Part shown: positions 13,066 to 31,262 of the stretch, piece by piece | How the letters are laid out: every line of letters begins with the position of its first letter | Numbering within the stretch: position 1 is the first letter of the stretch | Source: Paramarasmius palmivorus | Lineage: Eukaryota; Basidiomycota; Agaricomycetes; Agaricales; Marasmiaceae | DNA: 64,000 nt | Assembly (NCBI GenBank): GCA_037176845.1 | Contig: JAYKXP010000049.1 | Span: forward strand, 186,001-250,000 | Direction: 5' to 3' | Made by a program: the position numbers and the translations under genes | Notes under the pieces: generated by a model | The model's input: only the letters and a program-made list of their open reading frames with translations | Databases searched by the model: none | Told to the model about the DNA's origin: nothing

Positions 13066-14678
13066 ATGATCGCTCAAGCCCTCGTCGCTCTTTCAGCATC
13101 TGCACTCCTTATCAATGCAAGCCCTATTTACCCCTCCTGTGTCGGAGACTCTGCCACAACAGTCACTCACACAGTTACAGTCACCGCTTCGTATGTCGCG
13201 TCTATCTCTACTATCTGTCGAGCTAATTCTTGGTTTAGCGCTTGTGACTGCGGTGGCACCACTACTGGCATTACGACCATCGGAACCACTATTGGGACTA
13301 CCACTATTGGAACTACCACGATTGGCACTGTGACCACCGGTACCACCATTTCGTAGGTTCTTCACTCCTTCGTTCTCTTCAGTTCAACTAAATATAAGCT
13401 CTAGGGTGAGTACTGGTACCACGATCATCACAACACCCGTCACCATTCCAACAAGTCCACCACAGACGTTCGTACTCTTAGCACACGACATAGACCTTGA
13501 CACTAACTATGCGTGATTAGGACTTGCACTCATGACGTTCCTCCTCCTGTGAGCAGTGGAACTGTGTCTACGCCTGGAACTGTCAGCCTTCCCCCGAGCT
13601 CCATTCCAAGCTCTGGTGTTCCTCCCACCACGGTCCCAACTCAGAGCTTGCCCCCAACCTCAATCCCGAGCTCTGATGTGCCTCCTACTACGGTCCCGAC
13701 TCAGAGTTTACCCCCAAGCTCTATTCCAAGCTCTGATGTGCCTCCTACCTCGGCGCCCCCGAGCTCAGTTCCAAGCTCTGGCGTTCCTCCTACCACTGTT
13801 CCCACTTCGCCTCCAAGCTCCATCCCGAGCTCTGGCGTTCCTCCCACTTCGGTCCCGACTGAAAGCTTGCCTCCGAGCTCCGTTCCAAGCTCTGACATTC
13901 CTCCAACTTCGGTCCCCAGCTTGCCACCAAGCTCCATCCCGAGCACAGACATTCCTCCCACTACAGTTCCCACCTCCATTCCGGGCACTGACGTTCCTCC
14001 CACTTCAGTTCCTACCTCTATTCCGGGCACTGATGTTCCTCCTACTTCTGCCCCTGGAACTACCGCTCCTCCTACCTCTTCAGCCATTACTACCACCATC
14101 ACTTCTGAGGTGAGCCCATCTATAGCTAGTAACGATTTGCGAGTTTTCTAATGGACTATGTTTGCAGCCGCCTACCTCAACTGGCACCGGCGACGATGAT
14201 TGGCAATGCAGCACCGGCCCTGTTCAAGTGCGTTATGGATCTTATTGTTTCAACTAGCTCCAGCTGATGTACTGTCTCATTCTAGTGCTGCAACTCTGTC
14301 CAGAAGGTACGTTTCCATATTCCGCCGTCACCCAGAACCTCGATTAACTGATCTACTTATAGGCAAGCCACCCCGAAGCTGCTGGCCTCCTTGGTATGCT
14401 CGGTGTCCTCGCTGATCCGAATGCAGACGTGTAAGTGCACTACGCATTCTATGAACATATTAAGGTCTAAACACAATCACTTTAGCGGCGTTACCTGCTC
14501 GCCCATCACGGCCCTCGGTCTCGGTGGTAACTCCTGCAATGCGCAAACCGTTTGCTGCAGGAACAACCAATTCGTAAGTTTCTTTTTCCTCTCCGTTATG
14601 AATGAATGTACTTAACAATATGCGAAACAGAATGGTGTCGTTGCAATTGGTTGCACCCCCATCAACATTGGACTCTAA
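13066..14678 (+). CDS. Class I hydrophobin with Pro/Ser/Thr repeat extension
   Basis: Eight exons join in frame: 13066-13352, 13405-13467, 13521-14109, 14168-14227, 14286-14306, 14363-14430, 14486-14573 and 14631-14678 (407 aa). The protein begins with a signal peptide ([20 protein letters not shown]), followed by a Thr/Ile/Gly repeat region and about 190 residues of repeats built on '[19 protein letters not shown]'. The C-terminal 85 or so residues carry the eight-cysteine hydrophobin pattern: C, CC, C, then C, CC, C, visible in [30 protein letters not shown] and IGCTPI. Hydrophobins self-assemble at air-water and wall interfaces. The usual class I length is 100-150 aa, so this one is far longer. 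The repeat region is probably O-glycosylated and could tether or space the hydrophobin domain in the wall. Exon 2 uses a weaker GTTCGT donor. Confidence 0.88.
13568..14092 (+). repeat. Coding tandem repeats, Pro/Ser/Thr-rich
   Basis: Within hydrophobin exon 3, units of about 54-66 bases recur with 'ccaagctc', 'cctcc(c/t)ac' and 'gtcccgact' blocks in the same order. Later units shift to '[14 protein letters not shown]'. Copy number may vary between strains because adjacent units are nearly identical. Confidence 0.8.
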
Positions 14679-17726: not shown

Positions 17727-18276
17727 ATGAACATGAAAGCTTTATTCGCTATCATTCCTTTCGCCATTGTCTCTGTCGGTGCCTCCCCTATAAGTAGCGA
17801 CACATCAGCCTATGGGTGAGTCCCTTTATTTCCCACTCCAGACTCTTATTGAAGAGGGCTCTAGGGAGGAAGTATCCAGCAGCATTGGGTACGGCACGGC
17901 TGTCCCCAGCTCGAGCTATGCTATTCCTCCGCATGCCACCGCCACCGCCAGCACAATCCCATCCTGCGCACCTCATGGCATTCCTGACAGTGCTCCTCAC
18001 GGTGGTGACCACGCCACGGGTGGCCACCTTAGCAGCGGGTACTTCCCTTCCAGCGCCAGCCACGGCGCAAGTGCCTCGGAGTGGGGTGCCACTTTCCCTA
18101 GTGGCGTTCACACTGATATCGGAAGCCTTCCACCTTGCCCGCCACCAACTGCTGTGCCGAGCTGCGGGCCGGGGCATGTTTCTGGTTCAGAAATTCCCAG
18201 CTTCAGCATCCCAGTCCCTTCGGAATCATGGTCGGCGACAGCTGCGTCTAGCACCGAAAGTTCCTACGACTTTTGA
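17727..18276 (+). CDS. Small secreted Ser/Pro/His-rich protein, copy 1
   Basis: Two exons, 17727-17815 and 17865-18276, give a 166-aa protein. A signal peptide (MNMKALFAIIPFAIVSVGAS) is followed by a mature part rich in Ser, Ala, Pro, Gly and His, with repeated 'FPSSAS', 'HGASAS' and 'SGVHT' type motifs and only a few Cys residues (PSCAPHG, PPCPPP, SCGPG). It ends in STESSYDF without a GPI signal. No known domain was recognised. Composition and length fit a fungal small secreted protein or wall-associated glycoprotein. A paralogue lies 3.6 kb downstream within a duplicated segment. Confidence 0.75.
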
Positions 18277-21350: not shown

Positions 21351-21909
21351 ATGAACATGAAATTTTTATTCGCCATCATTCCTTTCGCCATCGTCTCTGT
21401 CGGTGCTTCCCCTATCAGCAGTGCGTCAGCCTCTGGGTAAGTGTCTTTATTTTCTGATTCGGACTGGTATTGAAGAGAAGTTTAGGTCGGCAGTATACAG
21501 CAGTATCGCATCCGGCACGGCTGCCCCTAGCTCGAGCTTTGCTATTCCTACGAACCCCACCGCCACCGCCAGCACAATCCCATCCTGCGCACCTCATGGC
21601 ATTCCTCATAGTGCTCCTCACAATGTTGACCACGCCACGGGTGCACACTTTAGCAGCGAGTACTTCCCTTCCAGCGCCAGCACCAGTCACGGCGCAAGTG
21701 CCTCGGAGTCCGGTGCCACTTTCCCTAGTGGCGTCCACACTCACACTGGTCGCGGAAGCCTTCCACCTTGCCCGCCACCAACTGCTGTGCCGAGTAGTGC
21801 GCCTGGGCATGTTTCCGGTTCAGAAATTCCCAGCTTCAGCATTCCAGTCTCTTCGGCATCATGGTCAACGACGGCTGCGTCCAGCACTGAAAGCTCTTAC
21901 GACTTTTGA
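21351..21909 (+). CDS. Small secreted Ser/Pro/His-rich protein, copy 2
   Basis: Two exons, 21351-21436 and 21486-21909, give 169 aa. The signal peptide (MNMKFLFAIIPFAIVSVGAS) and mature part match copy 1 closely, including the intron position and the STESSYDF end. Differences include an inserted Ser/Thr (ASTSHGAS) and loss of a Cys (PSSAPGHV in place of PSCGPGHV). Both copies are intact, so both may be expressed. Function is unknown. Confidence 0.75.
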
Positions 21910-22305: not shown

Positions 22306-23714
22306 TTACCACCCATGACCGTGATGGCCGCCACCATGCTTACCTCCCTTGTGCCCGTCGTGTTTACCCTCTTCGGCACGGGGATGATGCTTGGGCGGTT
22401 TGTGTGGCTTGTGTGGCTTATGTGGATGCTTGTGGTCGACATCACGATCCTCGAGATCAGACTGTCAAGAAAGTGGTTTAACGCCAGTGTCATATAAGGT
22501 AATGGGCCAATCACCTCTTCAGCACGGGGATGATGCTTGGGCGGCTTGTGTGGCTTGTGTGGTTTCTTGTGGTCAACGTCGCGATCTTCGAGGTCAACCT
22601 CCTCGACCTGTTGAAAACGGATTTATATCAGCTTCATTTAAGGCTGAACCGCAATATGGGTTGATTACTTCTTCAGCACGCGGATGATGCTTGGGAGGCT
22701 TATGAGGCTTGTGTGGCTTCTTGTGGTCAACGTCGCGATCTTCGAGGTCAACTTCCTCAACCTGTTGAAAAATAGTTCACGTCAATGCCATGTAAAACTG
22801 GACCATAAGATATGATGACCTCTTCAGCACGCGGATGATGCTTAGGGGGCTTGTGGGGCTTATGAGGCTTGTGTGGCTTCTTGTGGTCAACGTCGCGATC
22901 TTCGAGGTCAACTTCCTCGACCTGTTGAAAATAGATTTTATATCAGCTTCATTTAAGGTTGAACCGCAAGATAAGTCGATTACTTCTTCAGCACGCGGAT
23001 GGTGCTTGGGAGGCTTATGAGGCTTGTGAGGCTTGTGAGGATGCTTGTGGTCAACGTCGCGATCCTCGAGATCTACTTCCTCGACCTGTTAAAAGATTGT
23101 TTGCGTATTAGCGTCGGTTACAGCCTGGCCATGAACTTGTCTAATCACCTCGGCACGAGGATGATGCTTGGGAGGCTTGTGAGGCTTGTGAGGGTGCTTC
23201 GGCTTTTTGTGGTCGACATCGCGATCCTCGAGGTCAACCTCTTCGACAGACTGTTAACGAATAGTTAAGCATCATCTACAGCTCGAGCGTGAAACGGAAT
23301 GATTACCTCCTCGTCACGGGGGTGGTGCTTGGGAGGCTTATGAGGCTTGTGGGGCTTGTGAGGGTGCTTGTGGTCGACGTCGCGATCCTCGAGGTCAGCA
23401 TCAGCAGACTGTAAAAATTTCACGCGAAAACCAGACTCAGTAAGCGGCGAACGCTCTAGAATGAGCGACCTACCTCCTCATCACGCGGCCAGTGTTTGGG
23501 AGGCTTGTGAGGATGGTGGGGCGGCTTCGGCTTGTGGTGGTCGACGTCGCGACCCTCAACAGTAGGATCCTCTGGAGCCTAGGTACACAATGTTAGACCT
23601 CGAGTCAAAATCAAGGGTTTGGACGCGACCGCGACATACCCTAGGGATGCTGATACTGTAGACCGAAGTCGACAGCATAAGAAGAGCAAGAATTTGAGCA
23701 AGAGTGAAGCGCAT
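22306..23714 (-). CDS. Secreted histidine-rich protein of eight repeat exons
   Basis: Nine exons, all in phase 0, join on the minus strand: 23714-23640, 23578-23474, 23408-23307, 23250-23149, 23085-22984, 22921-22820, 22761-22669, 22607-22515 and 22461-22306 (309 aa). Exon 1 encodes a signal peptide (MRFTLAQILALLMLSTSVYS). Each later exon encodes one repeat of 31-35 residues: an acidic start (VEEVDLEDR), then DVDHK, a run of HKP units, and KPPKHHPRAEE. The last exon ends in a Gly/His tail (GGGHHGHGW). Three to five HKP units occur per repeat. The only Arg residues in most repeats flank the His/Lys/Pro core (EDR before, HPR after). I know no family with this design. Binding of Zn, Ni or Cu, or processing into short cationic peptides, are inferences from composition. 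Confidence 0.85.
22461..23578 (-). repeat. Exon-plus-intron tandem repeat array
   Basis: The unit is one exon (93-105 bases) with its following intron (about 55-65 bases), roughly 150-165 bases in all. Introns are alike too: those at 22983-22922 and 22668-22608 share 'cttaaatgaagctgatataaa' and 'ttttcaacag'. Whole units were therefore copied, not only the coding part. Confidence 0.85.
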
Positions 23715-23786: not shown

Positions 23787-23794
23787 CTTTTATA
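23787..23794 (-). promoter_or_regulatory. TATA box of the histidine-rich gene
   Basis: On the minus strand TATAAAAG lies about 80 bases upstream of the ATG at 23714. Confidence 0.6.
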
Positions 23795-31181: not shown

Positions 31182-31182
31182 T

Positions 31183-31262
31183 TCCATCACAGGGAATCGA
31201 ACCCTGGGCTATCGCGACACTCACATGAGAGGCGATAATGTTAGCCACTACACCATGATGGA
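31183..31262 (-). tRNA. tRNA-Glu (anticodon CTC) with a 9-base intron
   Basis: The minus strand folds into a full cloverleaf. The acceptor stem is TCCATCA/TGATGGA, the D-arm contains TAGTGGCTA, the anticodon stem is ATCGC/GCGAT, and the T-arm is CAGGG-TTCGATT-CCCTG. The anticodon loop is C-T-CTC-A, then a 9-base insert (31225-31217), then C. Removing the insert gives a normal 7-base loop and a 71-base tRNA. The anticodon CTC reads GAG. The insert begins one base after the anticodon, the canonical position for nuclear tRNA introns. Confidence 0.93.

Follow-up and report, generated by a model that had tools for sequence, protein, structure and literature searches.

Kex2-processed repeat proteins (KEPs) of fungi form a large class of predicted secreted precursors in which similar repeats are bordered by basic residues. 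As far as the available survey text goes, they are recognized by the dibasic sites KR, RR, KK, and RK, and the words exon and intron are absent from the main texts of two wide surveys. For Coprinopsis cinerea, the available part of PMC9769878 describes some KEP products as apparently cut after single arginines, including peptides seemingly released in this way from Coprinopsis KEPs expressed in Pichia. Dikaritins (ustiloxin and phomopsin type) likewise begin as a signal peptide followed by repeated cores that are cut by Kex2, and the excerpted text of PMC7329392 attributes their Tyr-based cyclization to DUF3328 proteins encoded nearby. In honey bees, the apidaecin gene has one exon for each repeated peptide (PMC3415428, available part); the peptides are Pro-rich and cationic and are separated by spacers resembling RREAEPEAEP (PMC11549390, available part). 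A fungal KEP type, P-4 (Rhizophagus, Diversispora, and Trichomonascus), is listed with an Apidaecin HMM profile in the excerpted text of PMC7329392.

The GHHPH region of vertebrate histidine-rich glycoprotein consists of tandem repeats, rich in His and Pro, that become more active in acid. Both the glycoprotein and a GHHPH peptide are antifungal, more strongly at low pH, and zinc is cited there as boosting the antibacterial effect of related peptides; this system differs from the gene described below in that the region belongs to a larger plasma protein, and acidic leaders and arginine borders are unmentioned in the available part of the paper (PMC2537934). The SP7-like effectors of Rhizophagus irregularis are fungal and consist of a signal peptide followed by 6 to 11 imperfect hydrophilic repeats. 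They differ in acting on plant splicing and, for several of them, in having a nuclear localization signal; the available description, on which we base the likeness, reports a feature common to these genes ahead of the first repeat and makes no mention of one exon per repeat (PMC11333574).

The repeat gene considered here lies on the minus strand, from 23714 to 22306, of the window, a 64,000-nucleotide stretch of Paramarasmius palmivorus DNA (contig C49, positions 186001 to 250000; coordinates below are those of the window unless a contig is named). The coordinates given by the sequence-only reading are exact for that strand, with the ATG at 23714 and the end of the stop codon at 22306, and its description of a predicted secreted, histidine-rich protein with one repeat in each of eight phase-0 exons agrees with our nine-exon model, which has a predicted product of 309 amino acids; the gene model and its splice pattern are predictions from the sequence. 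Exon 1 (23640 to 23714; 75 nt; 25 residues, MRFTLAQILALLMLSTSVYSISIPR) comprises the ATG and a signal-like stretch, MRFTLAQILALLMLSTSVYS, followed by ISIPR, and ends exactly on Pro-Arg; from the hydrophobic stretch we read it as a putative signal peptide. Repeat 1 (exon 2, 23474 to 23578) is the most divergent (HWPR, EGR). The gene model and repeat alignment place repeats 2, 4, and 5 in exons 3 (23307 to 23408), 5 (22984 to 23085), and 6 (22820 to 22921), while repeat 3 in exon 4 (23149 to 23250) ends one Glu short. Repeats 6 and 7, in exons 7 (22669 to 22761) and 8 (22515 to 22607), have cores three codons shorter, and exon 9 (22306 to 22461) contains repeat 8, a Gly/His/Lys tail (GKHDGHKGGKHGGGHHGHGW), and the stop codon.

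Each of the nine exons has a length divisible by three, so that every intron is in phase 0. The eight introns are all GT...AG and 53 to 65 nt long; their lengths modulo 3 (1, 2, 2, 0, 2, 1, 1, and 2) vary freely, and the repeat exons vary by whole codons only. Intron 1 (23579 to 23639; 61 nt; GTATGT...TAG) and intron 2 (GTAGGT) have donors closer to the fungal consensus than the weaker GTNATY of introns 3 to 8. Computed retention of intron 1, 2, 3, 4, 6, or 7 gave a shortened product, and retention of intron 5 or 8 gave one that was not cut short (330 and 327 amino acids), which is why introns 5 and 8 are unsupported by stops. A TATA-box-like TATAAAA (23788 to 23794, minus strand) lies 80 nt upstream of the ATG and is a modest signal, such a motif also being present in 107 of 2,000 shuffles of 150 nt.

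The repeat array, which was also returned by mechanical repeat finders, has the consensus VEEVDLEDRDVDHKxPHKPHKPHKPPKHHPRAEE, and 18 of the 35 columns in the alignment of its eight copies are invariant. The parts that had been assigned to every repeat are less uniform than first described: the leader VEEVDLEDR is present in five of the eight repeats only, and the final AEE likewise in five (DEE in two and AE in one). When all 28 repeat pairs were pooled, the Nei-Gojobori method gave a pS of 0.60 and a pN of 0.10; the resulting pN/pS of 0.17, which becomes 0.08 over the 21 pairs without divergent repeat 1, compares with a range of 0.59 to 2.18 in neutral simulations (n = 300). The repeats are thus under strong purifying selection, and the acidic leader with its flanks and the HKP core have equal pN/pS values (0.17 each). 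Repeats 4 to 7 encode almost identical protein, yet a third to two thirds of their synonymous sites differ; they therefore seem to be old copies kept alike by selection, not by recent copying. The synonymous difference in the cores may partly reflect misaligned HKP triplets, themselves a 9-nt repeat, but pS is still 0.59 when only the leader and flanks are counted.

The introns had also been described as near-copies of one another, which is true of only one of the 28 pairs. Introns 5 (22922 to 22983) and 7 (22608 to 22668) are 87% identical untrimmed, with a z of 9.3 when 6 nt of the donor end and 15 nt of the acceptor end are trimmed and the comparison is made with shuffles that preserve single-base composition only. 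Among the other pairs, 11 have a z of 2.0 to 3.2 (none of them involving intron 1, which is unlike the other introns, with a trimmed z of ≤1.4) and 16 have a z of <2. Duplication of whole exon-intron units is plausible, as had been suggested, but it would be old, because pooled repeat pairs differ at approximately 60% of synonymous sites; recent duplication is unsupported. With one repeat per phase-0 exon, loss or skipping of any one of the seven inner repeat exons would not shift the frame, as the earlier reading held for changes in repeat number; the synonymous divergence speaks against a recent change. Introns 5 and 7 are closer to each other than the flanking synonymous sites are (pS of 0.33 for repeats 4 and 6 and of 0.44 for repeats 5 and 7), and intron 6 between them is dissimilar. 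A recent duplication of a two-unit block was considered and is unsupported, with introns 6 and 8 unlike (z of 1.2) while introns 5 and 7 are alike. The idea that the introns are introners was rejected: in its own genome, intron 5 matches only itself and intron 7.

After its first 20 residues, the chain (289 residues) contains 55 His, 50 Pro, 44 Lys, 35 Asp, and 34 Glu residues and no Cys, Phe, Met, Asn, Gln, or Tyr. All 17 arginines past the signal peptide are on borders between acidic and basic modules, a placement that should be read as one ancestral pattern copied eight times and not as 17 independent events. Nine of them occur as Pro-Arg preceding Ala or Asp, the first of these closing exon 1, and eight occur as Asp-Arg or Gly-Arg preceding DVDH; both border arginines are invariant in all eight repeats. 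The cores account for 41 of the lysines and the tail piece for the other 3. KR, RR, and RK sites are absent from the product, and its four KK sites (in repeats 3, 5, 6, and 7) are all part of an HKKP within a core, none of them at a border. Computed cutting after every arginine yields eight cores, each 19 or 22 residues long, with leaders of 9 to 13 residues between them. The cores come in five variants; the commonest, present in three of the eight repeats, is DVDHKHPHKPHKPHKPPKHHPR (22 residues). At pH 5.5, this core has a computed charge of +9.3 and the leader AEEVEEVDLEDR one of −5.7; the corresponding values at pH 7 are +4.5 and −6.1, and that of the leader at pH 4.5 is −3.9. The leader can therefore mask the core near neutrality and does so less in acid.

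Set beside the described systems, the gene is built as a variant of multi-peptide precursors already described, and its exon layout has a precedent. The statement that no described family has this design stands for the repeat sequence, which is unmatched in the databases searched, but goes too far where the layout of the gene is concerned, because the apidaecin gene of bees devotes an exon to each peptide and the KEPs are a large fungal class. Predicted exons 2 to 9 resemble the apidaecin exons in each encoding one repeat, and both genes alternate a Pro-rich cationic unit with a spacer. They differ in that apidaecin borders are dibasic (RR) with an EAEP-type spacer and its peptide is Arg/Pro-rich, whereas here the borders are PR and DR or GR, the leaders are of the kind given above, and the peptide is His/Lys/Pro-rich. 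KEPs have at least three similar repeats, and this gene has eight; a hydrophobic first exon stands in the place of the signal peptide, and loci with a Kex2 layout are present in the genome. Membership of the class is nevertheless doubtful, because KR, RR, and RK are lacking, the borders are single arginines, and only the four KK sites inside the cores could qualify; published pipelines, as far as the available text goes, count KK and might for that reason list the gene.

We tentatively favor, with rather less than even confidence, a multi-peptide precursor that is cut after its arginines by a Kex2-type protease and releases acid-activated His/Lys/Pro peptides. What the sequence itself shows is the repeat array with its reading frame, its purifying selection, and its placement of arginines; we infer a metal-binding or antimicrobial role from composition. 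In this scheme, the gene would be transcribed and spliced as predicted and its product secreted. The nine Pro-Arg sites would most likely be cut first, which would yield units of 31 to 35 residues (e.g., AEEVEEVDLEDRDVDHKKPHKPHKPHKPPKHHPR); cuts might also occur behind the eight Asp-Arg or Gly-Arg sites and set eight cores free. Inside the cell, the acidic leader (approximately −6) would neutralize the core (+4.5) at pH 7; acid around mushroom mycelium would then protonate the histidines, bringing the core to approximately +9 at pH 5.5, and the peptide could bind microbial surfaces and in addition chelate metals (e.g., copper or zinc) as an acid-activated defense peptide.

The main reason for favoring a cleaved precursor is that the arginines mark the module borders. 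The invariance of the border arginines, purifying selection in leader and core alike, and the presence of Kex2-layout loci in the genome also argue for it: at two loci on contig C58, a subtilase (Peptidase_S8) match is followed approximately 0.6 kb on by a P_proprotein match. The computed charges, the Coprinopsis KEP peptides seemingly cut after single arginines, and, as an analogous function, the acid-enhanced antifungal effect of His-rich GHHPH repeats point the same way. Several points argue against such a precursor. Kex2 may cut at Pro-Arg, but a literature search for such cleavage returned no supporting passage; Asp on both sides of an Arg is unfavorable to it; and the arginine placement is one copied pattern. 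KR, RR, and RK sites are lacking, with KK confined to HKKP inside the cores, a poor cutting place, and the leader is as conserved as the core, which exceeds what a disposable spacer would require.

The last two observations would fit a chain that stayed uncut and worked as a complete repeat array, as a disordered secreted or wall-bound polyampholyte with pH-dependent charge and self-association and with metal ions on its 55 histidines. Leader and core are equally constrained and alternate regularly, no KR, RR, or RK separates the repeats, the terminal Gly/His/Lys tail could, from its composition, bind metals, and the computed net charge of the whole mature chain swings from +62 at pH 4.5 through +36 at pH 5.5 and +5 at pH 6.5 to −3 at pH 7. 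An uncut chain is the main rival and a serious possibility, although we think it probably not the correct one, and it leaves unexplained why Arg, and never Lys, marks every module border. Release of a peptide that acts on the fungus itself or on its neighbors, as a KEP-type signal or self-recognition factor and not as an antimicrobial, would suit similar repeated peptides under selection, which are in keeping with a receptor ligand. Known peptide pheromones usually have aromatic or hydrophobic residues, and the unit here is very hydrophilic and polycationic and contains neither; with KR, RR, and RK sites also absent, we regard a signaling role as unlikely, even though alpha-type pheromones and other KEP peptides derive from such precursors (PMC6339444, available part).

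Oxidative cyclization of the cores by UstYa (DUF3328) enzymes, as in a dikaritin-type RiPP precursor, is the least probable of the readings considered. Tyr in the repeated core of a dikaritin is usual, not universal, and the mature chain has none; together with the lack of a UstYa gene within approximately 167 kb, this led us to reject membership. Some di-histidine KEP types do adjoin DUF3328 genes, but the two that are named, G-3 and G-8, are listed under Ascomycota in the available part of PMC7329392. That the locus is no expressed gene at all, only an array of repeats that is in decay or arose by chance and whose ends happen to resemble splice sites, might be suspected from the weak donors of introns 3 to 8 and from the failure to match any annotated protein, those of the host species included. 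Nine stop-free exons in a single frame, a pN/pS well below the neutral range, and the TATA-like box upstream make this very improbable. Whatever probability remains beside the cut and uncut chains is shared among signaling, cyclized cores, a non-expressed array, and readings not listed here.

The neighborhood of the gene does not suggest a peptide cluster, as judged from the predicted domains. The window contains 498 open frames of ≥60 amino acids, and 10 of the 30 that were scanned against Pfam gave matches: short-chain dehydrogenase, F-box-like, CBP3-like, questin oxidase-like (two), GDPD, ERG4/ERG24, and P450, with fatty acid hydroxylase and an F-box LRR model under the curated cutoff. None matched UstYa (PF11807), which has at least 36 matches in the genome, counted as exon matches, none of them in the window and the nearest at C49:376612-378027. 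Two equal-score UstYa matches, at C31:374606-374956 and C85:31728-32078, are each accompanied, equally far away, by the same second exon match and are perhaps a recent duplication or uncollapsed assembly haplotypes. Beside the repeat gene, a predicted secreted, Ser/Pro/His-containing frame without a Pfam match (21361 to 21906, plus strand) has a 77% identical copy approximately 3.6 kb upstream (17740 to 18273, plus strand), which is read across a single TAA that may belong to an intron. A tandem repeat array with units of 15 to 159 nt (13254 to 14148, plus strand) extends into an open frame (13507 to 14148, plus strand) of Ser/Thr/Pro-rich appearance with no Pfam match, and a tRNA-Glu (CTC) lies at 31182 to 31262 on the minus strand.

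Searches of the genome itself (68.3 Mb) found one copy of the repeat gene. The DNA search returned this gene alone, and the six-frame protein search recovered seven of its eight repeats and missed repeat 1, so that a diverged paralogue could have escaped. Against 5.8 billion proteins, the whole 309-residue product had 7,989 candidates scored and none at an E value of ≤0.1 (a search covering proteins of approximately 170 to 540 residues), and its first 128 residues had 43 candidates and none at ≤10 (70 to 224 residues). Pfam returned no family, apidaecin included, at E values up to 1, a range in which HMMER filters drop most very weak matches, and the product matched no PDB sequence. As a control, the neighboring cytochrome assembly gene matched 169 proteins, the best being a Paramarasmius palmivorus protein that shares 320 of 321 positions once a 31-residue gap, probably an intron, is set aside; among the best 120 of the 169, the next were from Moniliophthora, Marasmius, and other Agaricomycetes. 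The database thus presumably contains the proteome of the host, among whose proteins the repeat gene is probably unannotated; since the host species is represented and there is still no match, the lack of matches in relatives is weak evidence of absence. A literature search, with most subscription journals outside its scope, found nothing on His-rich secreted mushroom repeat proteins with copper or on tandemly repeated exons in fungi.

Gene predictors seem to overlook genes of this kind, as there is no annotated match even from the host species. If the gene does encode a cleaved precursor, fungi would possess a polyprotein in which single arginines border acid-activated His/Lys/Pro peptides, a fungal counterpart to the bee apidaecin gene with its one exon for each peptide, and KEP surveys that rely on dibasic sites may overlook such precursors. 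The precursor reading also has the merit of yielding testable cleavage points, peptides, and an acid switch. A stronger form of it, in which the gene represents a new class of mushroom precursor, each exon a peptide cassette with an acidic mask and single-arginine borders that is cut after Pro-Arg to give several copies of an acid-activated, metal-binding defense peptide, is rather unlikely as a whole; were it true, exon skipping or exon loss would tune the dose of peptide while leaving the frame intact.
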